Positions 2,827-19,315 of a stretch of 64,000 bases of DNA are shown here, one piece after another; position 1 is the stretch's first letter, and every line of letters begins with the position of its first letter. Source of the stretch: Janthinobacterium sp. Marseille (GTDB taxonomy: Bacteria; Pseudomonadota; Gammaproteobacteria; Burkholderiales; Burkholderiaceae_D); the NCBI RefSeq assembly GCF_000013625.1, contig NC_009659.1, positions 2,108,001 to 2,172,000 of the forward strand, read 5' to 3'. Both the position numbers and the translations under genes were made by a program. The notes below the pieces were generated by a model that was not told the DNA's origin, did not search any database, and saw only the letters and a list, made by a program, of their open reading frames with translations.

Positions 2827-3270
2827 CTATTCAGAACCACGCGCCGCAAGCGCCGCCTGGTCCAGTGCATTTGCAAGGGTGCGCTGCTCATCACTCTTGA
2901 ACTGGGAAAGGAATAGTTCAGAAACCGTGGCTTCGTAAATTTTCCACATTTTTTTCCGCAGCGCTTTTCCCTCGGCAGTAATAGTTGCGAAGGCCGCCCT
3001 GCCGTCTTCTTCCGAACGCGCGCGTGTGACCAGCTTTTCCTGTTCCAGACGATCAATCAGGCGCGTCAGGTTATAGCGCTCAATCGCCAATGCCTCTGCC
3101 AATTCGTGCATGCGCCGCGTGCCGTTCTTCCCGCTCTCCAGTCCCCAGAGTACGTCATACCACGCATAGGTCGGCAAGCCCGCAGCCGCCAGGCGACGCT
3201 CGATTTCCTTGATGAGCACGCGATGGGTGCGCACAAAAGAGAACCACAGATCCGGTTCGTTGTTGTTCAT
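2827..3270 (-). CDS. MarR-family transcriptional regulator
   Basis: A 147-residue winged-helix regulator. The recognition region is at about residues 50-75 (MHELAEALAIERYNLTRLID) and the wing carries the family hallmark D-G-R (EEDGRAAFATIT). MarR proteins bind as dimers to short palindromes and release DNA on ligand binding or cysteine oxidation; no cysteine is present in this protein, which argues for ligand sensing. It is divergent from the E1/azoreductase operon. Two closely similar palindromes (3300-3313 and 3349-3362) in the shared promoter region are likely its operators, giving autoregulation and control of the opposite operon. Confidence 0.88.
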   Translation of the reverse strand: MNNNEPDLWFSFVRTHRVLIKEIERRLAAAGLPTYAWYDVLWGLESGKNGTRRMHELAEALAIERYNLTRLIDRLEQEKLVTRARSEEDGRAAFATITAEGKALRKKMWKIYEATVSELFLSQFKSDEQRTLANALDQAALAARGSE

Positions 3271-3299
3271 TCGAATCTCCGTTGAATGTTTTTATATCG

Positions 3300-3313
3300 A
3301 TTGCATTTGCAAT
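3300..3313. promoter_or_regulatory. Putative MarR operator, marR-proximal copy
   Basis: ATTGCA-TT-TGCAAT is a perfect inverted repeat with a 2-nt spacer, 30 bp upstream of the marR start codon. It is nearly identical to the second copy at 3349-3362, with centres 49 bp apart. Assignment to this MarR rests on position and symmetry. Confidence 0.65.
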
Positions 3314-3348
3314 TCAAATGATACCACTGTAGGATTGCCATCCATACG

Positions 3349-3362
3349 ATTGCAATTGCAAC
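3349..3362. promoter_or_regulatory. Putative MarR operator, E1-proximal copy
   Basis: The core TTGCAATTGCAA (3350-3361) is a perfect 12-bp palindrome matching the half sites of the copy at 3300-3313. It lies about 80 bp upstream of the E1 start, where it could block that promoter. Confidence 0.65.
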
Positions 3363-3442
3363 GATTTTTCACCCCCCCGGGAACGCTGATTCTCGTCGCT
3401 GCGCGCGGTCCCGGTACGCCTGAAACATTTTCGGAGATCCTC

Positions 3443-6115
3443 ATGAATCAACCGTTTGCAGAAGTCGACATTGACCCGCAAGAAACACAGGAGTGGCTTG
3501 AATCGCTGGATGCTGTTATCGATGTGGAAGGCCGCCCGCGTGCCCACTACCTGCTTGATAAGCTGGCCGATCTCGACCTGGCGCGCCACGGCGATTTGCA
3601 TGGTCGCGTAACGACGCCCTACGTCAATACCATTAGCAGGCAACGGCAACCGGCCTATCCCGGCGATGCCGGCATCGAGCGCCGCCTGAACGCCTATATA
3701 CGCTGGAATGCGATGGTCATGGTGCTGCGCGCCGGCAAACATTCAAATGTAGGTGGGCATATTGCAACCTATCAATCCGCCGCAGTGATGTATGACGTCG
3801 GCTTCGATCACTTCTTCCGTGGCCGCACAGATACCTTTGATGGCGATATGGTGTACATCCAGGGGCACTCTGCTCCGGGCATTTATGGTCGTGCTTTCAT
3901 TGAAGGACGCATAGATGAGGCGCGCATGGATAATTTCCGCCGCGAGTCGGATCGTGTCGGCTTATCGTCATATCCGCATCCGCGCCTGATGCCGGACTTC
4001 TGGCAATTCCCTACGGTGTCGATGGGACTGGGACCGCTCACGGCGGCTTACCAGGCGCGCTATATGCGCTATCTCGAATATCGCGGATTAAAGCAGCCGC
4101 AAGGACGCAAGGTCTGGGCTTTCCTTGGCGACGGCGAAATGGATCAGCCGGAATCACTGGCAGCGATTTCGCTCGGCGGCCGCGAACGCCTGGACAATTT
4201 GATCTTTGTGGTCAATTGCAATCTGCAGCGCCTGGACGGCCCGGTGCGCGGCAACAGCAAAGTGATCCAGGAGCTGGAAGCGACTTTCCGCGCCGCCGGC
4301 TGGAATGTGATCAAAGTCATCTGGGGCAGCGACTGGGACCGCTTGCTGGAAAAAGATGTCACAGGCCTGCTGCGCCGACGCATGATGGAATGCGTGGATG
4401 GCGATTTTCAAACATTCAAATCGCAAAACGGCGCATATGTACGGCAGCACTTCTTCGGTAAGTATCCGGAGTTGCTGGCGATGGTCACCGATATGTCAGA
4501 CGACGAGATATGGAAGCTGACGCGCGGCGGGCATGATCCGGAAAAAGTTTATGCCGCCTATGACCAGGCCGTCCGCACCAGCGGCCAGCCGACCGTCATC
4601 CTGGCAAAGACGGTAAAAGGCTTCGGCATGGGTGAAGCCGGAGAAGGCCAGAACATCAATCATCAACTGAAAAAAATGAGCGCCGATGCCGTGCGCACTT
4701 TCCGCGACCGCTTCGCCCTCCCCGTCAGTGATGAGCAACTGGAAGAAATGCCCTACCTGCGGCCGGCACCGGACAGCGAGGAAGCGCGTTACCTCGTGGC
4801 CAGGAGGAAGGCACTTGGTGGTCATATCCCGGCACGCTTCAGCGAAGTCGAGCCTTTGGCAGTGCCACCGCTATCGGCCTTCGCCAGCCAATTGCAAAGC
4901 AGCGGGGAACGCGGCGTGTCGACCACCATGTCCTTCGTGCGTATCCTGACCGCCCTGTTGAAAGACGAAAATCTCGGCAAGCTGGTAATCCCCATCGTAC
5001 CGGATGAATCGCGCACCTTCGGCATGGAGGGATTGTTCCGCCAGATCGGCATCCACTCCTATCTCGGCCAGCTCTATACACCGCAAGACGCCGGGCAGCT
5101 GAGTTACTACAAGGAAGCCAAGGATGGACAAATCCTGCAGGAAGGCATCAATGAATCCGGTGCGATTTCATCCTGGATCGCAGCCGGCACTGCTTACGCC
5201 AACCACGGTCTGGCGACGATTCCGTTTTATATTTTTTACTCGATGTTCGGCTTGCAAAGGGTTGGTGACCTCGCCTGGGCTGCCGCCGATGCACGTACCC
5301 GCGGATTCTTGCTGGGTGCGACTGCCGGACGCACCACACTGATGGGCGAAGGATTGCAGCATGATGACGGGCATAGCCACGTCCTGTCTTCCGTCATCCC
5401 AAGCTGCATTTCCTATGATCCAACCTTCTCTTACGAACTGGCCGTCATCATCCACGATGGCTTGCGGAGGATGTATGTCGAGCAGGAAGATATCTACTAT
5501 TACATCACCCTGCTGAATGAAAGCTATCAACATCCTGCCATGCCGGACGGCGCTGAAGCAGGCATCCTCAAAGGTTTATATCTGTTGCGTGAACACGCCG
5601 CTCAGCAAGACGGTGCCCCTCAGGTACAACTGATGGGTAGCGGTTCCATCCTGCGTGAAGTAATCGCTGCGGCAGAACTGCTGGAACAGGATTTCGGTAT
5701 AGCCAGCGACATCTGGAGTGCGACGAGCCTGACCGAAGTACGCCGTGATGGCCTGGCTGCTGAACGCTGGAATATGCTGCACCCGGATGAAGAAATGCGC
5801 ATTCCCTATGTACAGGAATGCCTGATGGGTCGCCGCGGTCCTGTCGTCATCGCCACCGATTACATGAAGATCGTCGGTGACCAGATCCGGCCGTTTATCA
5901 ACGACCGCAGGTTCATTGCATTGGGCACTGATGGATTCGGACGTTCGGATACTCGGGAATCCTTGCGCAGCTTCTTTGAAGTAGACAGGCATTTCATCGT
6001 CCTGGCAGCGCTGAAGGTGCTGGCCGACGATGGAAGTATTCCGCGCAGCAAGCTGGGCGAGGCGATACAACGTTACGGTATCGATATCAATAAAGTTGAT
6101 CCTGCTGCAGTGTAA
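3443..6115 (+). CDS. aceE: Homodimeric pyruvate dehydrogenase E1-type protein, stand-alone
   Basis: An 890-residue thiamine-diphosphate-dependent 2-oxoacid dehydrogenase E1 of the homodimeric (AceE) type. The ThDP motif runs from GDGEMDQPE near residue 230 to NCNLQRLDGPVRGN, and the length is that of the family. The ATG at 3443 is preceded by GGAG and starts MNQPFAEVDIDPQETQEW, a normal AceE N terminus; the open frame upstream of it crosses the operator region. No E2 (aceF) or E3 (lpd) gene is adjacent, unlike the usual pdh operon. It is followed 25 bp later by an azoreductase gene and sits under a putative MarR operator. It could be a second, conditionally used PDH E1 or act on another 2-oxoacid such as 2-oxobutyrate; sequence alone does not decide. 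Confidence 0.9.
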   Translation: MNQPFAEVDIDPQETQEWLESLDAVIDVEGRPRAHYLLDKLADLDLARHGDLHGRVTTPYVNTISRQRQPAYPGDAGIERRLNAYIRWNAMVMVLRAGKHSNVGGHIATYQSAAVMYDVGFDHFFRGRTDTFDGDMVYIQGHSAPGIYGRAFIEGRIDEARMDNFRRESDRVGLSSYPHPRLMPDFWQFPTVSMGLGPLTAAYQARYMRYLEYRGLKQPQGRKVWAFLGDGEMDQPESLAAISLGGRERLDNLIFVVNCNLQRLDGPVRGNSKVIQELEATFRAAGWNVIKVIWGSDWDRLLEKDVTGLLRRRMMECVDGDFQTFKSQNGAYVRQHFFGKYPELLAMVTDMSDDEIWKLTRGGHDPEKVYAAYDQAVRTSGQPTVILAKTVKGFGMGEAGEGQNINHQLKKMSADAVRTFRDRFALPVSDEQLEEMPYLRPAPDSEEARYLVARRKALGGHIPARFSEVEPLAVPPLSAFASQLQSSGERGVSTTMSFVRILTALLKDENLGKLVIPIVPDESRTFGMEGLFRQIGIHSYLGQLYTPQDAGQLSYYKEAKDGQILQEGINESGAISSWIAAGTAYANHGLATIPFYIFYSMFGLQRVGDLAWAAADARTRGFLLGATAGRTTLMGEGLQHDDGHSHVLSSVIPSCISYDPTFSYELAVIIHDGLRRMYVEQEDIYYYITLLNESYQHPAMPDGAEAGILKGLYLLREHAAQQDGAPQVQLMGSGSILREVIAAAELLEQDFGIASDIWSATSLTEVRRDGLAAERWNMLHPDEEMRIPYVQECLMGRRGPVVIATDYMKIVGDQIRPFINDRRFIALGTDGFGRSDTRESLRSFFEVDRHFIVLAALKVLADDGSIPRSKLGEAIQRYGIDINKVDPAAV

Positions 6116-9936: not shown

Positions 9937-10396
9937 GGGACATGCCTTGTGCACGTAGCGCCATCTGCGCCACTGCCAATACATCCTGGCTCAGCTCCAG
10001 CGCACCATCCTGCAATGCCTGCAGACGGAACCAGCCCGCGTCTGCGGCATCATCCGCCGCCACCGGCTCACCGGACTGCCATTCACACAGGACCGCGAGC
10101 AGGACAAAATGCTGCAATAACTCGCCCGCCTCATCCTTGCCATAAGCATTGAGTGCCGTCAGCACATGCCGGGCTTGTGCACGCACGCCGGTTTCTTCGT
10201 ACAACTCACGTACCGCCGCTGCTTCCATTGTTTCACCGAAATCCATTTTTCCGCCGGGGAAACCCCACAGGCCGACATCGGGCGGATTCTTGCGGCTGAC
10301 CAGCAAGACTTCATCACCACGCAGCAGCACGGCAATCACAGCCGCAACCGGAATTTTTCTATTGCTGCTGGTATCGACTGGTGCCTGCATGATCAA
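9929..10396 (-). CDS. NUDIX hydrolase
   Basis: A 155-residue NUDIX pyrophosphohydrolase. The complete Nudix box (GX5EX7REUXEEXGU) is present from GGKMDFGET to RELYEETGV, about residues 48-71, with all metal-binding glutamates. Flanking features (AAVIAVLLRGDEVLLVSRKNPPD and WGFPGG) resemble small house-cleaning or dGTP/nucleotide-sugar type members rather than RppH. Substrate unknown. The start may be 10396 or the second ATG at 10390. It overlaps the end of the permease gene tail-to-tail. Confidence 0.88.
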   Translation of the reverse strand: MIMQAPVDTSSNRKIPVAAVIAVLLRGDEVLLVSRKNPPDVGLWGFPGGKMDFGETMEAAAVRELYEETGVRAQARHVLTALNAYGKDEAGELLQHFVLLAVLCEWQSGEPVAADDAADAGWFRLQALQDGALELSQDVLAVAQMALRAQGMSLS

Positions 10397-10486
10397 ACCT
10401 GGATGGAAACGCTAAGGATGAAACCGTCATTGTAACGACTATCAGCCGTGCCATAATCAGCACTCCCTTCCCGGCGATTGATACCC

Positions 10487-11281
10487 ATGCTCGAGCCTTA
10501 CCTGAAACGCTGGCAACTCACACCTGACGGCACCGCCATCATGACGCCCGGCAGCCAACTGCTGCCGGTACGCATGGCCGGTATGCCGGCGATGCTGAAA
10601 GTCTCGGCGGAGGAAGAAGAAAAAAACGGCGCTCTCTTGCTGGCCTGGTGGGACGGCGATGCCGCCGCCCGCGTGCTGGCCTGTGAAGGCGATGCGCTGT
10701 TAATGGAAAGAGCCGAAGGCCAAAGCACATTGCTGGAGATGGCCTTACACGGCCGGGATGATGAAGCCAGCCGCATCATGTGCAAAGTCACGGCGCAATT
10801 GCATGCGCCACGTAACAAGGCTTTGCCGCCACTGGTGCCGCTGACGCAATGGTTCCAGGCACTGGAACCGGCGGCCGCGAAATATGGCGGCATCTTCACT
10901 TACAGTGCCGCCGTGGCCCGCGACTTGCTGGCCAAGCCGCAGAATACCGTCGTACTGCATGGCGACATCCATCATGGCAACATCCTCGATTTTGGCGCGC
11001 GCGGCTGGCTCGCGATCGATCCGAAAGGCCTTGCAGGTGAGCGCGGCTTCGACTATGCCAATATCTTTTGCAATCCCGAACTCGCCAATGCCATCGTGCC
11101 CGCACGTTTCCTGCGCCAACTGGAGATCGTGGTCGCAAACTCCGGGCTGGAACGCACACGCCTGCTGCAATGGATACTGGCCTACGCCGGTTTATCGGCT
11201 GCGTGGTTCTTCGAAGACGGCATGGAAGCGCCCACCGCGCTCGCGGTCGCCGAGCTGGCCATCAGCGAATTGAATAGATGA
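10487..11281 (+). CDS. APH(6)/hydroxyurea-type phosphotransferase
   Basis: A 264-residue protein of the aminoglycoside-6-phosphotransferase/hydroxyurea-resistance kinase family. The catalytic loop VVLHGDIHHGNILDF (near residues 160-175, HGDxxxxN) and the metal-binding WLAIDPKGLAGERGFD segment are intact, as are a nucleotide-binding-lobe LLKVS-like strand and the ALLMERAEG hinge. Members include StrB-type streptomycin kinases, but chromosomal copies are common and their natural substrates are usually unknown. Resistance should therefore not be assumed. ATG at 10487 is preferred to an in-frame TTG at 10478. No resistance-island or transposon features are nearby. Confidence 0.82.
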   Translation: MLEPYLKRWQLTPDGTAIMTPGSQLLPVRMAGMPAMLKVSAEEEEKNGALLLAWWDGDAAARVLACEGDALLMERAEGQSTLLEMALHGRDDEASRIMCKVTAQLHAPRNKALPPLVPLTQWFQALEPAAAKYGGIFTYSAAVARDLLAKPQNTVVLHGDIHHGNILDFGARGWLAIDPKGLAGERGFDYANIFCNPELANAIVPARFLRQLEIVVANSGLERTRLLQWILAYAGLSAAWFFEDGMEAPTALAVAELAISELNR

Positions 11282-11539
11282 GACCTTGTAAACACTTGGT
11301 AAAACTGCACCGGGTTGACGGAATATTCTAAATGGCTATACTCACCCTATCCCCAACTTGCATACACAGCTTGTAATGACCTCCCCAACCTTCCTGTCGA
11401 AACGCATCGGTTCTGCGCCGAACAAGGAAGAGTTGCGCGTGCGCACTTTACTCGCAGGTCGTACTTCGACCACCGTGCATGCAGTCGCAAAGATGTACTC
11501 GCAGTCATCTTTTGTAAGAGACCTCGCCTGCCTCCCTTA

Positions 11540-11596
11540 GGCTCGGTGAGTGTCCACAGGAACGAAGCTTCGTTCCACCCACATCACTCCCGAGCC
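11540..11596. repeat. Large interrupted hairpin in the 11282-11707 gap
   Basis: A nested inverted repeat. The outer arms are GGCTCGG (11540-11546) and CCGAGCC (11590-11596), then come GAGTG/CACTC, and at the centre is the perfect 18-bp palindrome GGAACGAAGCTTCGTTCC (11559-11576). It lies in a 426-bp region without a convincing gene, about 110 bp upstream of the Rnk-like gene. It could be a structured leader, a non-autonomous repeat unit or a cruciform; there is no adjacent T-run as a terminator would have. Confidence 0.6.
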
Positions 11597-11707
11597 TCCC
11601 ACTCGTAAATTCCACACTGTGTTGATGCTGTTTGCGTCTGCACCGTATTGCCATTTTTCTTGTCATTATTTGGTCGGCCTCAAGGTCGGCCCGGAGCTAT
11701 TACCAAA

Positions 11708-12127
11708 ATGAAAAACGAACGTTACCTGACCCAAAACGATGCCGCCACGCTGAGCCGCATTGCCGAACACTTGCTGCGCATGGGTGAAGTTGAAATCAAC
11801 GCCGGTGAACAATTGATAGACATCATTTCGACTTCCATCATCCTGCCAGTTGATGTACAGCGCAAAGGCTATGTCACCCTCTATTCGACTGTCTCATACA
11901 GCCCGGTCGATACTGAAGAAGTGCGCAAGCTGACCATCGTTTGTCCGCAGGATGCGAACCCGCAACTGGCTCTGATTTCGGCGCTGACGCCTATCGGCCT
12001 GGCTTTGATCGGACGCAAGGCTTTGACGACGGTCGAAGTTGCACTGCCATCGAAGCGCGTTGAAAAGCTGAAGATCCTGGATGTCACACCTTTGGACTCG
12101 ACCATGGGCGAGCTCGCACTGTCATGA
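11708..12127 (+). CDS. rnk: Rnk-like nucleoside diphosphate kinase regulator (GreA/GreB C-terminal fold)
   Basis: A 139-residue protein of the Rnk family: a short helical N-terminal part (residues 1-50) followed by the FKBP-like GreA/GreB C-terminal domain, visible as PVDVQRKGYVTLYSTVSYSP, LTIVCPQDAN and the SALTPIGLALIGRK segment. Rnk binds RNA polymerase near the secondary channel and was first described as affecting nucleoside diphosphate kinase. It lacks the long coiled-coil tip of GreA. ATG 11708 fits the family N terminus; a TTG 60 nt upstream is less likely. Its stop codon overlaps the ATG of a 38-aa membrane peptide (ATGA). Confidence 0.8.
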   Translation: MKNERYLTQNDAATLSRIAEHLLRMGEVEINAGEQLIDIISTSIILPVDVQRKGYVTLYSTVSYSPVDTEEVRKLTIVCPQDANPQLALISALTPIGLALIGRKALTTVEVALPSKRVEKLKILDVTPLDSTMGELALS

Positions 12128-12240
12128 AACGCGTAACAGCCATACAGCTGGTAGAGCGAGGCAAACGGCTAAAAAAATGGTTTGCCGCGTGTATCGCCTT
12201 CAGCATGGCAGTCGTCGTGGTCGCCATGACGATCGATTAA
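12124..12240 (+). CDS. 38-aa single-span membrane peptide, coupled to the Rnk-like gene
   Basis: The reading frame starts with the ATG of an ATGA overlap with the Rnk-like stop codon and encodes 38 residues, running from MKRVTAIQLVERGKRLKKW to AMTID. The first half is strongly basic (K/R at 2, 3, 12, 14, 15, 17, 18). The second half is a hydrophobic stretch (FAACIAFSMAVVVVAM) long enough for one membrane span, giving a basic-in orientation by the positive-inside rule. The stop-start overlap predicts translational coupling. No family is recognised. It is too short for routine gene finders and should be checked by conservation. Confidence 0.5.
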   Translation: MKRVTAIQLVERGKRLKKWFAACIAFSMAVVVVAMTID

Positions 12241-12291
12241 ATTCGCAGGAGTATTGATGGCAAGGGCAGCGTATTACGCAAATTGTATGAA

Positions 12292-12322
12292 GAGGCGGCT
12301 GTATCAACGCATACAGCCCCTC
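12292..12322 (-). terminator. Possible terminator hairpin after the response-regulator gene
   Basis: GAGGCGGCTGTAT and ATACAGCCCCTC form a 12-bp stem with one bulged base and a 6-nt loop, located 60-90 bp past the stop of the minus-strand response regulator. The downstream T-run on that strand is weak (TTCATACAATTT), so termination is plausible rather than certain. Confidence 0.4.
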
Positions 12323-12385
12323 TGCCCGCCTGTGCCCGGCGCAATGCCGCAAGCGTATTACTGCGGTATGGACCCTGTTATAGGT

Positions 12386-13327
12386 TTAGTGCGGCCACTT
12401 CGGTAGGCGCGCATCCACGCTTTCCTGCGCACTCGCCATTGCAGCAGCGGCCGAGCGCGTTTCCACCCCGAGTTTTTCAAAGATATGTTCGAGATGCTTG
12501 CTCACGGTACGTGGGCTCATCTTCAGGATTTCACCGATGTCGCGATTGGTTTTGCCTTTCGCCAGCCATGACAGGACTTCGGTTTCGCGCGGTGTCAGTG
12601 CGGCACTGGCGAGACGTCCGGTCGGCAGCGCATGGTTGCCGCTCAACTCGATCAGCAACATGATTTCATCCATGCCGGCCGCACCCATATTACGTACCAG
12701 CAGGCTGGCACCGGCAGGCTCGGTAACCGATGCCACCAGTTCCATGCCACTACTGCCTTTCCACCATGATTGCGGCACCGTCAACGCTTCCGGATCGATA
12801 CCGAATTGCGTCAGCAACTGGCGCGCGCAAGGCGAACACCATGAAATAGCACCTTCCTCATTGAGCATGATCACACCCAGGCCGGAGACATCAATCGCAT
12901 CGAGTGCGAAGCGCGCCATGCGTGCATTGCCCAAATGCGTATGCAGGCGTGCCAGCACTTCCGGCGCGCGTACCGGCTTGACGACATAATCGACGCCGCC
13001 GCATGCAAAACCTTCCAGCACATGCGAAGTGTCGGACAGGCCGGTCATGAAAATCACCGGGATATGTTTGGTCGAGAGATCCGCCTTGATGCGACGACAG
13101 GCATCAAAGCCGGAGATGCCCGGCATCACCGCATCCATCAGGATGACATCCGGCGTCACCAGGCTCAGGCGGCGCAAGGCGGTATCGCCGTCACATGCCA
13201 CCAGCACGGTATAACCGGCACCCTCCAGTGTTTCGCACAGGACGCCGAGGCTGCTCGGGGCATCGTCCACCAGCAATACAACCGGACGGTCATCAGGATT
13301 ATCAATCAGGTGATGCGACACGTTCAT
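12386..13327 (-). CDS. Response regulator with LuxR-type HTH, partner of the NCS1-kinase fusion
   Basis: A 313-residue two-part regulator. The N-terminal receiver domain has the acidic pair in VVLLVDDAP and the phospho-acceptor Asp65 in VILMDAVMPG. A middle segment (about 135-235) has a PAS-like look (GLGVIMLNEEGAISWCSPCARQLL). The C-terminal LuxR HTH is TPRETEVLSWLAKGKTNRDI and onward, about 243-300. The gene begins 26 bp inside the end of the upstream sensor kinase gene, so the two are translated from one mRNA and form a cognate pair. The likely targets are the divergent fmdA-fmdB and amiS genes. The PAS-like middle domain is an extra between receiver and HTH and could take a second input. 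Confidence 0.9.
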   Translation of the reverse strand: MNVSHHLIDNPDDRPVVLLVDDAPSSLGVLCETLEGAGYTVLVACDGDTALRRLSLVTPDVILMDAVMPGISGFDACRRIKADLSTKHIPVIFMTGLSDTSHVLEGFACGGVDYVVKPVRAPEVLARLHTHLGNARMARFALDAIDVSGLGVIMLNEEGAISWCSPCARQLLTQFGIDPEALTVPQSWWKGSSGMELVASVTEPAGASLLVRNMGAAGMDEIMLLIELSGNHALPTGRLASAALTPRETEVLSWLAKGKTNRDIGEILKMSPRTVSKHLEHIFEKLGVETRSAAAAMASAQESVDARLPKWPH

Positions 13328-16300
13328 TCTCCATTAATGCGTTCTCCAATGCGCCCAACTCAAAACGGTCCAGCAATGATCTTACTACGTTGCAGGATGC
13401 GACGACTGTTGCATCGGCCGCTGCCAGCCGGTCCACTGCGCGGCGCAGTCCGCTCACATGTCCCATGCGGGTCAGTTGCAACAATTGCTCAATGGAAGGT
13501 TGCCGGAACTCCAAACGTTCCGGCAAGGCTTCCGTCACCGGCACCGGTGGCGGTGTGCTGGCATAGATCCATTCCAGCCCCAACTGCCTTTGCAGGGCCA
13601 GCATTAATTCCGATTCCAGCACCGGCTTGCCGACAAAATCCTGGCAACCGGCTGCCTTCAATTTCACGGGATCGTTTTCAAACAAATCCGCCGATACGAA
13701 AATAATCGGAATACCGCTGGACGCGCGTACGCGGCGCGCCGTTTCCCAACCATCCATGCCATCCATGCCGATATCCAGCAAGATCGCGTCTGGCACAAAG
13801 TCTTGCAATAGATCGATGCATTCATGGCCACTGGCTGCTTCACGCACATTGAAGCCCAATGGAATCAGCATGCCGCTCAACATATGCCTTTGCACCGGCT
13901 GGTCATCCACCACCAGCAAGGTGCGCGCGACACCGGTATGGCCGATCACATCGCGTTGCGGCAGGGCTTCGAAGGCATTGATTTCCATCAGTGGCAAACG
14001 CACGACGAAGGTACTGCCCTGCCCCTGGGTACTGATCAGGTTCAGGCTACCGTTCATCATCAGTATCAGCTTCTCGGTAATTGCCAGTCCCAGGCCCGCA
14101 CCCGGCTCGCCACGCAAACGTCCGGCGGCACCGCGCTCGAATGGCTGGAAGATACGCTGTCGGTCCTGCACGGCAATCCCGATGCCGGTATCGATCACAT
14201 CAAAGCGCATGGAAACACCGGTGCATTCGACATGCAGGGTGACGGAACCGGTATCGGTAAAGCGCAGCGCGTTCGTCAACAGGTTAATCAATATCTGGCG
14301 CAGGCGTTTACCATCCGCCAGTACGTAATGCGGCAAATCGCCGCCATGCGTATATTGCAGGCGCAAACCTTTCGCCTCGGCTTGCGGCCTGACCATACTG
14401 AGCAAATCATCAATGAAGGCAGCGAACAGGATAGGCGCCGGTTCCAGCCGCATGCGATCCGCTTCGATACGTGCCAGATCCAGCAATTCATCGACCAGTC
14501 CCAGCAAATGTTCGCCGCTGCGCTGTATGGTCTGGATCGCGGTGCGCGGCGCGGCGTCGAGCTGTTCGTTCTTCAGCAGGATTTGCGAATAGCCGAGGAT
14601 GCTATTGAGCGGTGAGCGCAACTCATGCGAGATACCGGCGACATAACGTGTCTTCGCCTGGTTCGCCGATTCGGCCGCTTCCTTTGCACTCTGCAATGCC
14701 GCATCGGTGCGTTGATGCGCGTCTATCTCCTGCGTCAGCAATTCGTTTTGCCGGTTCAAATCATCCTGCGCCAGATGTCGCCCTTCGCTGCCCAGCACCA
14801 CCCACCAGCTGGACACTGCAACAATGATCAATAGCACGGCAGAAATCTTGAGGAAGATGCTGTCCAGCAGCAAGCGATCACCGGCTGAAGTCAGCGTGGA
14901 AATTTCCTGCGCATAGACCAGGCCGAGTGCGGCAGCCCCGACCGCACACAAGGACAGCACCACCACCATATAGTTACCGACGCGCCGGTTGACCAGGTGC
15001 GACAAGGCATTCGGCAACAAGGCTGACAATAATTGCTGCGCCTGTTCCGCGGTCCGTGATTCCTTCTTGCACAAATCATGGCAACGCGATTCCAGCGTGC
15101 AGCATAGTGAACAGATAGGCGCACCATAGGCCGGGCAATGTGCCATATCTTCCGATTCAAAACTATTGTCACAGACGCCGCATTTCACCGCCTGTCCCGG
15201 TAAGCCGACCGCAGTCGGTTTGCGTGCGAGATAGTAGCGGCCGCGCGTCAGCCATGCGAGCAAAGGCGAAACAAGGAAGGCCATACCCAGCGTAATGAAT
15301 GGCGAGAAAGCGGCGACCTTATGGCCCCATACACCCGAGAACGCGGCGATACCTATGCTGGCCGAGAGCAACATGGTGCCGAGGCCAACCGGATTGATAT
15401 CGTATAAATGCGCGCGCTTGAATTCGATACCTTTCGGACTCCAGCCCAAAGGCTTGTTGATCACCAGGTCAGCGACCAATGCGCCGACCCAGGCCACCGC
15501 CACATTGCTGTACAGGCCCAGCACATTTTCCAGTGCGGCGAACACACCCAGGTTCATCAACAACAAAGCCAGCAGGCAATTGAAGACCAGCCACACCACG
15601 CGTCCCGGATGACTGTGCGTCAGGCGTGCGAAAAAGTTCGACCATGCAAGTGAACCGGCATAGGCATTCGTCAAATTAATCTTGACCTGCGACACGACCA
15701 CGAACAGCAGCGTGATTGCCAATATCCAGACCGGATCGCTGAACAGATAAGAGAAGCCGAGCAAATACATGCGCGTCGGCTCCATCGCATTCCCTGCCGG
15801 CACGCCGGACTGGAACACCAGGTAAGCAAGGAAGGCACCGCCCAGCATCTTCAAGCCGCCGGGGATAATCCAGCCCGCACCCGCGACGATGATAGCGGTC
15901 CACCAGCGCCGCTTATTCTCTGCCGTGCGTTCCGGCAGGAAGCGCAAGAAATCGACCTGCTCGCCAATCTGCGCCACCAATGAAAACGCCACGGTGGCGG
16001 CAACGCCAAACATCACGGGGTCCAAGCTATTGCTTTTGGAAATGGCACCGACGAATTGCGCGAACTCGGTATACGCCTCCGGCTTTTTCCAAAAGATCGC
16101 GATATACGGTGCGACCAGCAAGATCAACCACAATGGCTGCGTCCACATCTGCAAACGGGAAATCAGCGTAATCCCGCGCGCCACCAGCGGCACGATGAAC
16201 AAGGCACAAATCACATACCAGATCCACAGCGGCCACTGTATCCACATCTGCAATGCCACCGCCAGGATGGCGGCCTCCAGTGCGAAAAAGATGATGGTGA

Positions 16301-16670
16301 AGCTCGCATAAATCAGCGAGCTGATGGTCGAGCCCATATAGCCAAAGCCGGCACCGCGCGTCAGCAAATCCATATCGATGCCATAACGCGCCGCGTAATA
16401 ACTGATAGGCAGGCCGGTGAGGAAAGTGATCAGCATCACCGTCAGGATGGCGGTGACTGCATTCGCGAAACCGTAGTTAAGCGCAATCGCGCCACCGATC
16501 GCTTCGAGCGCGAGGAAGGAAGCCGCACCGAAGGCGGCATTGCCCAACTGCCACTCCGACCATTTACGGAAATGCCGCGGTGTATAGCGCAACGCATAAT
16601 CTTCAATCGATTCGTTGGCGACCCAGCGGTTGTACTCGCGGCGAATGCGAAATATTTTTTGTTGGGCCAT
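13302..16670 (-). CDS. NCS1-family transporter fused to a hybrid sensor histidine kinase
   Basis: A 1122-residue fusion. Residues about 30-470 form a full NCS1 (nucleobase-cation-symport-1) permease body with around 12 spans. Residues about 498-535 carry a Cys-rich cluster (CGVC, HC, CSLCC, CHDLC spacing) like a zinc ribbon. Two more spans follow (about 563-627). The kinase core has the H-box with HELRSP near 682, an N-box near 793, DTGIGI and GAGLGL. The C-terminal receiver has its Asp near 965 (LLDIGMDG), followed by about 80 further residues. Start MAQQKIFRIRREYNRW (16670) is preferred to a longer frame. Such a protein should sense, and perhaps carry, a small amide, urea or nucleobase-like compound and relay phosphate to its own receiver and then the co-encoded regulator. 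Its divergent neighbours are formamidase genes, so a short amide is the best guess. Confidence 0.92.
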   Translation of the reverse strand: MAQQKIFRIRREYNRWVANESIEDYALRYTPRHFRKWSEWQLGNAAFGAASFLALEAIGGAIALNYGFANAVTAILTVMLITFLTGLPISYYAARYGIDMDLLTRGAGFGYMGSTISSLIYASFTIIFFALEAAILAVALQMWIQWPLWIWYVICALFIVPLVARGITLISRLQMWTQPLWLILLVAPYIAIFWKKPEAYTEFAQFVGAISKSNSLDPVMFGVAATVAFSLVAQIGEQVDFLRFLPERTAENKRRWWTAIIVAGAGWIIPGGLKMLGGAFLAYLVFQSGVPAGNAMEPTRMYLLGFSYLFSDPVWILAITLLFVVVSQVKINLTNAYAGSLAWSNFFARLTHSHPGRVVWLVFNCLLALLLMNLGVFAALENVLGLYSNVAVAWVGALVADLVINKPLGWSPKGIEFKRAHLYDINPVGLGTMLLSASIGIAAFSGVWGHKVAAFSPFITLGMAFLVSPLLAWLTRGRYYLARKPTAVGLPGQAVKCGVCDNSFESEDMAHCPAYGAPICSLCCTLESRCHDLCKKESRTAEQAQQLLSALLPNALSHLVNRRVGNYMVVVLSLCAVGAAALGLVYAQEISTLTSAGDRLLLDSIFLKISAVLLIIVAVSSWWVVLGSEGRHLAQDDLNRQNELLTQEIDAHQRTDAALQSAKEAAESANQAKTRYVAGISHELRSPLNSILGYSQILLKNEQLDAAPRTAIQTIQRSGEHLLGLVDELLDLARIEADRMRLEPAPILFAAFIDDLLSMVRPQAEAKGLRLQYTHGGDLPHYVLADGKRLRQILINLLTNALRFTDTGSVTLHVECTGVSMRFDVIDTGIGIAVQDRQRIFQPFERGAAGRLRGEPGAGLGLAITEKLILMMNGSLNLISTQGQGSTFVVRLPLMEINAFEALPQRDVIGHTGVARTLLVVDDQPVQRHMLSGMLIPLGFNVREAASGHECIDLLQDFVPDAILLDIGMDGMDGWETARRVRASSGIPIIFVSADLFENDPVKLKAAGCQDFVGKPVLESELMLALQRQLGLEWIYASTPPPVPVTEALPERLEFRQPSIEQLLQLTRMGHVSGLRRAVDRLAAADATVVASCNVVRSLLDRFELGALENALMENERVASPD

Positions 16671-16901
16671 CAGTCGGATGAAGAATTGGATAGGTGGCAA
16701 ATGTTGCGCTGCAATGCCAACCGGTTTTCAAATCTCGTCAGGTTCATATGCGCTTATGTAATTTTTATATCGCAAACACCTTCAACGATAGTCTCCTGCA
16801 AATTCTGCCTGCTTTTTCAAATTACAGGAATTGAAAATATTTCACAAGGCAAGTTTCCATCCACCAAGAAGCATGAACAGTTTTGCATGTACGCCGTTTG
16901 A

Positions 16902-16917
16902 CGTATTGGGAGATACG
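16902..16917. promoter_or_regulatory. Candidate regulator site upstream of fmdA
   Basis: CGTAT-N6-ATACG is an inverted repeat 127 bp upstream of the fmdA start in the 373-bp divergent region. It is a candidate site for the LuxR-type response regulator. The same half sites occur near amiS (18706-18730) but in the opposite arrangement and with wider spacing, so the match is weak. No clear -10/-35 could be assigned for either divergent gene. Confidence 0.3.
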
Positions 16918-17043
16918 CAATGTCCATACATTATTTGGTTCGGAATGCTCGGATCGCAGTCTCCAGGTGCGCGCGCGCTGGATAGTCACATCGGGGAAAT
17001 CCGGGTTCCATCCATACAAACATAACTTTGAGAGGTAGACATC

Positions 17044-18276
17044 ATGGCTGAAACCCTGATTAAAGTAGATCTGGATCAATCCCCCTACGATAACGAGAAT
17101 GTCCATAACCGCTGGCATTCCGACATCCCGATGGCGACCTGGGTGAACCCGGGCGACGACTTCATCCTCGAAACCTATGACTGGACCGGCGGCTACATCA
17201 AGAACAATGATAGTGCCGATGACGTACGTGACGTCGATCTCACCACCGTCCACTTCCTGACCGGACCGGTCGGTGTCCATACTGCAGAACCCGGCGATTT
17301 GCTGGTGGTTGAATTGCTGGACATCGGTGCCAAGCAGGAATCGATGTGGGGCTTCAACGGCTTCTTTTCGAAGAAAAACGGTGGCGGCTTCCTGACCGAC
17401 CACTTCCCTGAAGCGCAAAAATCGATCTGGGACATCAAAGGCATGTTCACCTCGTCACGCCACGTACCAGGCGTGAACTATGCAGGCCTGATCCATCCCG
17501 GCCTGATTGGCTGCCTGCCGGATCCTAAATTGCTGGCTGAATGGAACAGACGCGAAACCGGCCTGATCGCGACCGAACCTGATCGCGTCCCACCACTGGC
17601 GAATGCACCATTCGCACCAACCGCACACATGGGCAAGATGAAAGGCGCAGCACGCGACAAGGCGGCAGCCGAAGGCGCACGTACCGTGCCACCACGTGAA
17701 CACGGCGGTAACTGCGACATCAAGGATTTGTCGCGCGGCTCGAAAATTTTCTTCCCTGTGTATGTCAAAGGCGCAGGTTTGTCAGTCGGCGATTTGCACT
17801 TCAGCCAGGGCGATGGCGAAATCACCTTCTGCGGCGCGATTGAAATGGCGGGCTGGGTGCACATGAAGGTAACGGTGATCAAAGGCGGCATGGCTACCTA
17901 CGGCATCAAGAATCCGATTTTCAAACCGAGCCCTATCACCCCGCATTACAACGACTACCTGATCTTCGAAGGTATCTCGGTGGATGAGCACGGCAAACAG
18001 CATTACCTCGACGTCAACGTCGCGTATCGCCAGGCTTGCCTGAACGCCATTGAGTACCTGAAGAAATTTGGCTACACCGGCGCACAGGCGTATTCGATCC
18101 TGGGTACGGCACCGGTGCAAGGTCACATCAGCGGCGTGGTCGATATCCCGAACTCCTGCGCCACCTTGTGGTTGCCGACGCAGATCTTCGACTTTGATAT
18201 CAACCCGAGTTCTGCCGGCCCTGTGGTGCAGAAATTCAAAAGCATGGGTATGCCTCTGTCGCGCGATCTCAAGTAA
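17044..18276 (+). CDS. fmdA: Formamidase/acetamidase
   Basis: A 410-residue FmdA/AmdA-family amidase, which hydrolyses formamide (and possibly acetamide) to the acid and ammonia in the cytoplasm. The family pattern is clear throughout: MAETLIKVDLDQSPYDNENVHNRWH start, HTAEPGDLLVVELLDIG, VPGVNYAGLIHPGLIGCLPD, HGGNCDIKDLSRGSKIFFPV, LHFSQGDGEITFCGAIEMAG and PNSCATLWLPTQIFDFDI. Length matches Methylophilus-type formamidase. AGAGG precedes the ATG. It lies head-to-head with the NCS1-kinase gene, and fmdB follows after 12 bp. It supplies nitrogen from amides, so induction by substrate through the adjacent sensor is expected. Confidence 0.95.
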   Translation: MAETLIKVDLDQSPYDNENVHNRWHSDIPMATWVNPGDDFILETYDWTGGYIKNNDSADDVRDVDLTTVHFLTGPVGVHTAEPGDLLVVELLDIGAKQESMWGFNGFFSKKNGGGFLTDHFPEAQKSIWDIKGMFTSSRHVPGVNYAGLIHPGLIGCLPDPKLLAEWNRRETGLIATEPDRVPPLANAPFAPTAHMGKMKGAARDKAAAEGARTVPPREHGGNCDIKDLSRGSKIFFPVYVKGAGLSVGDLHFSQGDGEITFCGAIEMAGWVHMKVTVIKGGMATYGIKNPIFKPSPITPHYNDYLIFEGISVDEHGKQHYLDVNVAYRQACLNAIEYLKKFGYTGAQAYSILGTAPVQGHISGVVDIPNSCATLWLPTQIFDFDINPSSAGPVVQKFKSMGMPLSRDLK

Positions 18277-18288
18277 TAGGAGAAAGTC

Positions 18289-18633
18289 ATGCCAACCTAC
18301 GATTATGTCTGCAAGGACTGCGGTTTTTTCGAGGCGGTGCGCACTATCGCAGCGCGCAACGATCCCATCGATTGCCCGCACTGCGCGGCGACGGCTGACC
18401 GTACCTGGGCATCCGCACCGAGCCTGGCGCTGATGCCGGAAGCACGTCGACATGCGATGAGCACCAATGAAAAATCATCGCATGAACCGATGAGCTCCAA
18501 GAACTACGCATCCAAAGCGCATCCTTCCGGATGCAGTTGCTGCTCTTCCGGCAAGAAGAGCAAATCAACCCTGGTCGCCCCGAACGGAAATAAAACCTTC
18601 GTCGGCAAGCGACCGTGGATGATCAGCCACTGA
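18289..18633 (+). CDS. fmdB: FmdB-family zinc-ribbon protein
   Basis: A 114-residue protein with the FmdB zinc ribbon at the N terminus: MPTYDYVCKDCGFFEAV and DCPHC provide two CxxC knuckles. The rest is polar and low complexity, with a second cysteine group (SGCSCCSSGKK) near residue 82. FmdB proteins sit beside formamidase and amidase genes and have been proposed to regulate them, but the biochemical role is not settled. It is 12 bp behind fmdA with its own ribosome site (AGGAGAAAG), so the two form one operon. The protein is longer than minimal FmdB (about 60-110 aa). Confidence 0.9.
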   Translation: MPTYDYVCKDCGFFEAVRTIAARNDPIDCPHCAATADRTWASAPSLALMPEARRHAMSTNEKSSHEPMSSKNYASKAHPSGCSCCSSGKKSKSTLVAPNGNKTFVGKRPWMISH

Positions 18634-18799: not shown

Positions 18800-19315
18800 A
18801 TGCTATTAGGTTTTTCACTACTCTATGTGGGCGCAGTTCTATGCCTCAACGGCCTGTGGCTGCTCGGTCGCATCGGCGACAAGGAGATATGGGTCATCAA
18901 CGTTTTTTCAGGCACCGTCACCTTCCTGATTTCAATGCAACTGGCTTTCGGTGCGAATGCAGATGCGGGTTCCATCAAAGCTGCCGCCCTCACCCTGTTA
19001 TTTTCCTTCACTTACTTTTGGGTTGCTTTCAATCGCTATAACGGCGCCGATGGTCGCGGCCTCGGCTGGTTCAGCCTGTTCGTCGCCATTACCGCCATTC
19101 CGGTTGCAATTGAAACCCTGCAAACCGCTACCAGCACCTGGGGTGTCTGGTTCGGCCTGAACTGGGCGGCGTGGGCGGTATTGTGGTTTATGTTTTTCCT
19201 CCTACTGTCGGCAGAAAAACAAATCGCCAAGATCACCGGCGTGGTCGCGCTGCTCTGCGGCGTGTTCACCGGCTGGGTGCCAGGCTTCCTCCTGCTTAAC
19301 GGCGCATTACAGTAA
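18800..19315 (+). CDS. amiS: AmiS/UreI-family amide/urea channel
   Basis: A 171-residue, six-span membrane protein of the AmiS/UreI family. The first span MLLGFSLLYVGAVLCLNGLWLLG, the KEIWVINVFSGTV segment and the FSFTYFWVAFNRYNGADGRGLGWFSLFV stretch fit the family. Members pass urea or short amides across the inner membrane. A good ribosome site (AAGGAGATG) precedes the ATG. It lies 166 bp after fmdB on the same strand and so completes an amide-uptake-and-hydrolysis locus. A strong inverted repeat (19324-19352) ends the unit. Confidence 0.9.
   Translation: MLLGFSLLYVGAVLCLNGLWLLGRIGDKEIWVINVFSGTVTFLISMQLAFGANADAGSIKAAALTLLFSFTYFWVAFNRYNGADGRGLGWFSLFVAITAIPVAIETLQTATSTWGVWFGLNWAAWAVLWFMFFLLLSAEKQIAKITGVVALLCGVFTGWVPGFLLLNGALQ

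Follow-up and report, generated by a model that had tools for sequence, protein, structure and literature searches.

Which signal is read by a histidine kinase whose sensory part is a complete permease, and which genes does it control? This question is raised by a gene at positions 13302 to 16670 of a 64,000-nt stretch of Janthinobacterium sp. Marseille DNA (NC_009659.1, positions 2,108,001 to 2,172,000; the whole stretch is called the window here), which encodes a single chain consisting of an NCS1-like permease body, a cysteine cluster, two additional membrane spans and a hybrid histidine kinase. We propose a histidine kinase of the transceptor type, which would detect urea or short amides and induce the genes for their breakdown by way of its regulator, and we put the probability of this reading at roughly 0.7.

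Layout and permease body of the sensor

The gene forms a single open frame on the minus strand, from an ATG at 16670 to a stop codon that ends at 13302. The order of parts in its 1122-amino acid (aa) product, which the original prediction had proposed from the letters, is confirmed (Table 1). HisKA, HATPase_c and receiver domains were all matched by Pfam in this one chain, which identifies it as a hybrid histidine kinase, and no Pfam family matched residues 1-640. In particular, PF02133 was not found in the window protein at E values up to 1, nor at its place in a search of its own genome, and it is not among the 25 of 51 Pfam families shown for 62 aligned members. The affiliation of the permease body comes from fold and profile. 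NCS1 proteins (CodB, Mhp1) were on top in both structure comparisons with a clear margin, SLC5-type folds being present in both lists, ranked under NCS1. A remote NCS1 homology was also obtained by profile comparison (hhalign 99.2, E 1.8e-19, 405 columns); the FGxxG and D..R motifs of NCS1 are kept in this alignment, where D240 and R243 align with the Asp found in 20 and the Arg found in all of 21 NCS1 carriers. The idea of a transporter-kinase fusion resembling CbrA of Pseudomonas (an SLC5-STAC histidine kinase and histidine transceptor), with an NCS1-type body, is thus borne out.

Table 1. Parts of the sensor, its presumed operator and the adjacent genes (positions in the window)
Feature	Positions	Strand	Basis
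NCS1-like permease / Cys cluster / hybrid histidine kinase, 1122 aa	13302..16670	-	ORF and translation, Pfam
NCS1-fold permease body, residues ~31-480	15231..16580	-	fold and profile comparison
Cysteine cluster, residues 497-534, C-x2-C-x11-C-x7-C-x2-CC-x5-C-x3-C	15069..15182	-	alignment
Two extra transmembrane spans ahead of the kinase, residues ~563-625	14796..14984	-	helices in model
HisKA and HATPase_c, residues ~672-894; phospho-acceptor His682 by motif	13989..14657	-	Pfam
Hybrid-kinase receiver, residues ~919-1026; Asp966 by motif	13593..13916	-	Pfam
Predicted regulator-binding palindrome GTACGCCGTTTGACGTAT, 22.7 bits, centre 146 bp before fmdA	16889..16906		matrix
Response regulator, receiver (Asp65 by motif) and LuxR/GerE DNA-binding domain	12386..13327	-	Pfam
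fmdA, formamidase, divergent from the kinase gene	17044..18276	+	NF045496, 751.9 bits (cut-off 500); PF03069
FmdB-type zinc-ribbon protein (RPWMISH)	18289..18633	+	NF053663, TIGR02605
AmiS/UreI family amide/urea channel	18800..19315	+	PF02293, 203.8 bits

At the carrier site, the comparison with Mhp1 reveals a set of replacements. In Mhp1, we take W117, Q121, W220 and N318 to lie at the hydantoin, which is sandwiched by the Trp pair, and A38, I41, A309, S312 and T313 to lie at the sodium. Mhp1 numbering was transferred via an NCS1 protein; the mapping, a sequence alignment rather than a measured geometry, was identical in all 10 hhalign settings. W117 and W220 correspond to F128 and L231 of the sensor, Q121 to E132, S312 and T313 to K330 and I331, and, after a one-residue gap, N318 to N335. 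All 62 of 62 rows of the family alignment have E132, K330 and N335; Lys at position 312 occurs in none of the 21 carriers and Glu at position 121 in two. The sensor keeps the D..R motif of NCS1 carriers, but the Trp pair and the Ser/Thr of the Mhp1-type sodium site are replaced, the latter being lacking in many of the 21 carriers as well and thus not decisive. Judged from the alignment, the altered site would suit a small polar ligand that is bound independently of sodium.

Gene neighbourhood and the nature of the ligand

The sensor family is sharply bounded. Scanning genome contigs yielded 169 confirmed relatives, the best 80 being retained. With the family profile, matches (E up to 1e-20) were obtained in 66 of 399 genomes from the order and in 52 of 398 from the phylum, two sets that partly overlap. 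All listed matches reach at least 572 bits, except for two fragments of 182 and 173 bits. The family is also found on plasmids, with 525 matching records in a collection of 72,556, 342 of them Klebsiella by name. Most listed plasmid copies are named 'ATP-binding protein' or carry no product name. The former is the name used in the four annotated plasmid regions that were opened; other listed records call the product 'integral membrane sensor hybrid histidine kinase' or 'response regulator', use an ArcB-like name or are unannotated.

In the window, the end of the kinase gene is overlapped by 26 bases by the gene of a response regulator in which Pfam recognizes a receiver and a GerE domain, as in NarL/LuxR-type regulators. 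In 52 of 61 dereplicated loci, a relative of this regulator is encoded 3.2-3.7 kb downstream of the start of the sensor gene. About 110 residues between its receiver and GerE domain are without a clear Pfam domain (weak PAS-like match, E 0.31).

On the other side, the kinase gene is flanked by the divergent genes fmdA, fmdB and amiS. We called the genes of the relatives' loci with a codon-score caller and assigned marker genes by tblastn thresholds, basing the main count on the 106 of 140 loci whose flanks both extend over at least 8 kb (34 were dropped). FmdA, UrtA, UrtD, urease or AmiS was present in 102 of these 106 loci, and FmdA, UrtA, urease or AmiS in 41 of the 45 that remained after dereplication below 82% identity. 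In contrast, the same markers were found in none of 20 control windows, taken from the same contigs 150-200 kb away from the sensor and searched with the same thresholds. Even where the flanks were cut, 28 of 34 loci contained a marker. AmiE was identified in 33 of all 140 loci, as against 0 of the 20 control windows. In sampled loci, NCBIfam models recognized UrtA, B, C, D and E (L013), UrtA, B and C (L077), UrtA (L067), urease alpha and gamma (L068) and, in four loci, the aliphatic amidase AmiE. In all four opened plasmid regions (Rhizobium sp. T136, Klebsiella pneumoniae, Sinorhizobium meliloti pSymB and Paraburkholderia pBN4), urtABCDE are located near the sensor. As a further observation, the K. 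pneumoniae plasmid pZ0117KP0005-1 (L241) carries urtABCDE, formamidase and the sensor together; its annotation table, incomplete by its own description, has no regulator gene directly after the sensor.

Because most relatives examined adjoin genes for uptake and breakdown of urea and amides, the family suggests itself as a little-studied switch for these nitrogen sources. A nucleobase or hydantoin was rejected as the signal, since the neighbours are urea and amide genes and the equivalents of W117 and W220 are Phe and Leu. The NCS1 ligand range named in the original prediction is thereby refined: what the neighbours (urt, urease, fmdA, amiE, amiS) have in common is the chemistry of urea and short amides, not that of nucleobases.

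This raises the question if the permease body is a receptor or still a carrier. It might be a working transporter with a regulatory tail, in which uptake drives the kinase, an option that would differ from our proposal in its trigger only and that we regard as unlikely, though as the most serious of its competitors. The body is of full length, CbrA both transports histidine and signals (PMC7096432, PMC13022988), and the accessible parts of the same preprint (PMC13022988) mention proton-coupled carriers of the LeuT fold that have Lys at the sodium site. However, a gene for a urea/amide ABC transporter or an AmiS channel adjoins most members, so a second carrier would not be needed, and the residues of the Mhp1-type sodium site are absent. 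We favor a receptor for urea or a short amide.

A palindrome shared by the upstream regions

We inspected 36 gaps between sensor gene and divergent operon, 35 from dereplicated loci plus that of the window (which is close to L003). An unprimed count of all 5-mer inverted repeats ranked TACGT-N6-ACGTA first, with occurrences in 16 of the 36 gaps; in each of ten shuffles the best word reached at most 2. A matrix seeded with this word converged on ATACGTCAATTGACGTAT (18.5 bits) and scored at least 12 bits in 31 of 36 gaps, compared to 0.08 expected from shuffles, and no site of at least 12 bits was present in 398 kb of control sequence. Of the 31 sites, 29 are located 87-174 bp before the divergent gene and the other two at 321 and 392 bp. 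The palindrome type common to these upstream regions can be written as ATACGTCA-NN-TGACGTAT, i.e. two heptamers TAC.....GTA with a spacing of 2. Inverted heptamers in a 7-2-7 arrangement are the binding geometry of NarL-type regulators, which the palindrome matches.

The site also accompanies the urea and amide genes when these are not next to the kinase gene. In the sensor loci, we counted 135 sites of at least 14 bits, 103 of them within 900 bp before the sensor gene and 32 elsewhere, many of the latter from related loci. By script, 18 of these 32 were located within 400 bp before urtA or fmdA and 2 before urtC; inspection added 6 before amiE (L014, L050, L060, L061, L065, L176) and 1 before a porin-like gene preceding urtABCDE (L168). 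The rest are found in L018 (which resembles L014 and holds amiE), L072, L176 near 42, L174 near 3800 and L153 near 14154. The palindrome thus precedes urtA, fmdA and amiE even with the kinase gene several genes away. For example, in each of the four annotated plasmid loci urtA is preceded, at a distance of up to ~220 bp, by a site scoring 22.6-26.6 bits, and on S. meliloti pSymB the site stays before urtA with three genes between the urt operon and the kinase. L240 has a further site elsewhere (12.5 bits).

Genome-wide, the exact pattern was detected in 26 of 66 sensor genomes but in only 12 of 332 without the sensor (Fisher 2.8e-14, relatedness not corrected), and 28 of its 32 sites in sensor genomes lie within 12 kb of the sensor. 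The reversed pattern, counted by hand, occurred in 9 of 66 sensor genomes and 59 of 332 others; the control is therefore not enriched. Conserved neighbourhood and shared palindrome together back the earlier suggestion that the sensor may control the neighbouring amidase genes, as far as sequence comparison can do so.

According to our proposal, the NCS1-fold body would bind urea or a short-chain amide (formamide, acetamide) and thereby change its conformation, and the Cys unit and the two extra spans would relay this change to the kinase. The kinase would then phosphorylate the LuxR-type regulator encoded by the overlapping gene, which in its phosphorylated form would bind the 18-bp palindrome of two inverted heptamers and activate the divergent amide/urea operon, here fmdA-fmdB-amiS. 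Anatomy and comparative genomics support the two ends of this chain, while its middle steps are those that we infer.

A different signal has to be considered as well. Instead of binding urea or amides itself, the sensor could respond to an effect of the nitrogen supply (for instance on pH, ammonia or membrane energisation), and the amide neighbours would then reflect a general nitrogen role; we consider this improbable. In its favor, the protonation of a lysine at the sodium site could depend on pH, as is argued for K196 of CbrA in the parts of the structure preprint available (PMC13022988), and the fmd cluster of Methylophilus is described, in the portion of the source at hand, as repressed by high ammonia and induced by formamide and urea (PMC10781810). 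Yet strong sites in the sensor loci are mostly placed before urt, fmdA and amiE, and a general nitrogen regulator would be expected to have sites at many other nitrogen genes, whereas the degenerate pattern has only three exact places in the 4.1-Mb genome of the strain itself. One of them is the fmdA site; the other two are at 965799 (10.4 bits) and 1329561 (13.6 bits).

It is slightly less probable still that the palindrome belongs to another regulator, the kinase pair being located nearby but exerting no control over it. In favor of this, the exact pattern does occur in 12 of the 332 genomes for which no sensor was detected, and the regulator encoded beside the kinase is a predicted binder of the palindrome. 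On the other hand, the enrichment of the pattern in sensor genomes, its proximity to the sensor and the fit of the two spaced heptamers to a NarL/LuxR-type dimer argue for this regulator, as does the fact that the four dereplicated full-flank loci without amide genes (L071, L161, L162, L179) have no site of at least 10 bits either.

Several observations weigh against control of urea and amide genes by the sensor and its regulator. The same four loci lack both markers and site, and 6 of the 34 loci with cut flanks also have no marker, including L074 and L076, where CbiM-like and HrpA-type genes adjoin. In 5 of the 36 gaps (L068, L078, L141, L144, L154) the score stays below 12 bits, and two of these five gaps precede urease. 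The Fisher value overstates independence, because the palindrome was found in the very loci that were counted first and many of them are close relatives. When up to one mismatch is allowed, the degenerate pattern matches 25 places in the strain's own genome and the reversed control 78, so that the pattern is not specific by itself there. Moreover, the genome's own urt-urease cluster (L238) has two weak sites (8.3 and 10.0 bits) and none before urtA. Finally, four members with short sensor frames of 885-945 aa (L155, L159, L163, L164) lack the receiver, according to Pfam in the two relatives tested (L155, L164) and by frame length in the other two, and the LuxR-type partner was not found there.

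An extension of the regulon to the own urt-urease cluster was considered; since no good site precedes urtA there, an amide may be what is sensed in this strain, instead of urea. Sigma-54 control in the divergent gap was rejected, as no consensus match was present in the 36 gaps; a sigma-70-like promoter was not found at 16600-17100.

Some further sites and variants were noted. A second operator-like site in the window (3150-3167, 15.8 bits) lies ~50 bp before a long frame (3209-6115) whose translation resembles a pyruvate dehydrogenase E1; the site may be a chance occurrence or a real target. Elsewhere in the genome, operator-like sites occur near 1246677 (12.9 bits; stretch L229) and 3468632 (12.5 bits; L228), stretch L226 corresponding to 1329561, and a 20.4-bit site at 1031390 is located inside a kinase reading frame. 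Directly upstream of the sensor (10001-13537), L071 has CzcA-type and ZntA-type metal efflux genes and neither a urea/amide marker nor the palindrome, perhaps reflecting a change of signal. Receiver-less sensors were located at 8254-10911 of L155 and 8146-10983 of L164. The gene following the short sensor encodes a REC-kinase in L155 and L159 and a REC-EAL protein in L164, and the same sensor head seems to be wired to different outputs in L155 and L164.

Cysteine unit, related systems and significance

All eight Cys of the unit at residues 497-534 are invariant in 62 of 62 rows. In the full model the linker consists of a Cys-rich beta/helix unit and long helices, and the unit modeled alone (pLDDT 74, pTM 0.53) has four short strands and one helix. 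A Foldseek search with it listed PHD, RING, FYVE and LIM fingers, all with E values of 0.2 or worse. Prok-RING_1 gave a weak Pfam match in 7 of 62 members (best E 0.02), and sequence matches in the PDB (best E from 0.00014) were short C2H2-finger stretches that span the first CxxC part only; no significant relative of the whole unit was found in Pfam, PDB sequences or the fold search. A metal-binding linker, as originally supposed, is plausible in view of the eight invariant Cys and the treble-clef-like predicted shape, but a significant structural or profile match to the whole unit is missing. The unit is probably a cytoplasmic structural zinc finger at the position where CbrA has its STAC domain. 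The redox gate that had also been suggested finds no support: from the layout, the cluster would be cytoplasmic, and for such a location a zinc site of structural function would be the simpler assumption. That the cluster itself senses, with nickel or zinc binding or oxidation gating the kinase, is the most doubtful of all the alternatives: its eight Cys are invariant, and some members adjoin urease, a nickel enzyme, the CbiM-like gene of L074 or the metal-efflux genes of L071, but the same cluster is kept in members beside urt and fmdA, away from urease, its predicted shape resembles structural zinc fingers (if with no match better than the above E of 0.2), and its place between the NCS1 body and the two spans would be cytoplasmic and reducing.

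Transporter-kinase fusions are few in the literature covered, comprising SLC5/STAC kinases and an Amt kinase. CbrA and the window protein have in common a LeuT-fold body fused to a histidine kinase, with a linker domain after the transporter, and a lysine at the Na2 site, which is K196 in CbrA according to the accessible parts of the preprint (PMC13022988) and K330 here by alignment. They differ in that CbrA has an SLC5 body, a four-helix STAC and a PAS domain, whereas the window protein has an NCS1-type body, the eight-Cys unit, two extra spans and an in-chain receiver, and its system a LuxR-type partner and urea/amide neighbours. In CrbS/R (acetate) and RpuS/R (pyruvate), too, a transporter is fused to a kinase that governs genes for catabolism or uptake, as far as the parts of the sources available go; these SLC5/STAC sensor kinases differ from our sensor in transporter family, STAC linker and ligand. 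KsAmt5, the ammonium sensor histidine kinase of an anammox bacterium, also uses a transporter fold fused to a kinase as nitrogen sensor, as far as the accessible parts of the reports go (PMC5764959, PMC8534201), with an Amt/Rh fold and ammonium as ligand. CodB and Mhp1 share the fold and both motifs with the sensor, which differs from them by its missing PF02133 match, the replaced residues described above and the fused kinase.

Short amides are also sensed by AmiC/AmiR of Pseudomonas aeruginosa, which controls the aliphatic amidase; AmiC is binding-protein-like and AmiR an antiterminator, so that this system has neither a kinase nor a membrane receptor.

Neither an NCS1-kinase fusion nor a histidine kinase for urea or amides was among the publication matches listed, most subscription papers being outside the search. 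A thesis title in the reference list of one paper, a source available in part, pairs NCS1 transporters with sensor kinases (PMC8399564), and a word search of the main text of the Methylophilus fmd paper, as far as accessible, found neither 'two-component' nor 'histidine kinase' (PMC10781810).

We think the odds lie slightly in favor of a wider view, in which these proteins form a widespread uncharacterised class of transceptors across Proteobacteria and Klebsiella plasmids. Here, an NCS1 body would have become a receptor for urea or short amides, with the aromatic clamp lost and a lysine replacing the sodium site, an eight-Cys zinc unit linking it to the kinase instead of STAC, a dedicated regulator and a shared operator upstream of urt, fmdA and amiE genes. 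If our proposal is true, a third transporter class serves as receptor, and the aligned lysine, as in CbrA, would suggest that carriers have turned into receptors repeatedly by a similar route. The use of formamide, acetamide and urea in Variovorax, Sinorhizobium and other bacteria would also gain a candidate regulator and operator.

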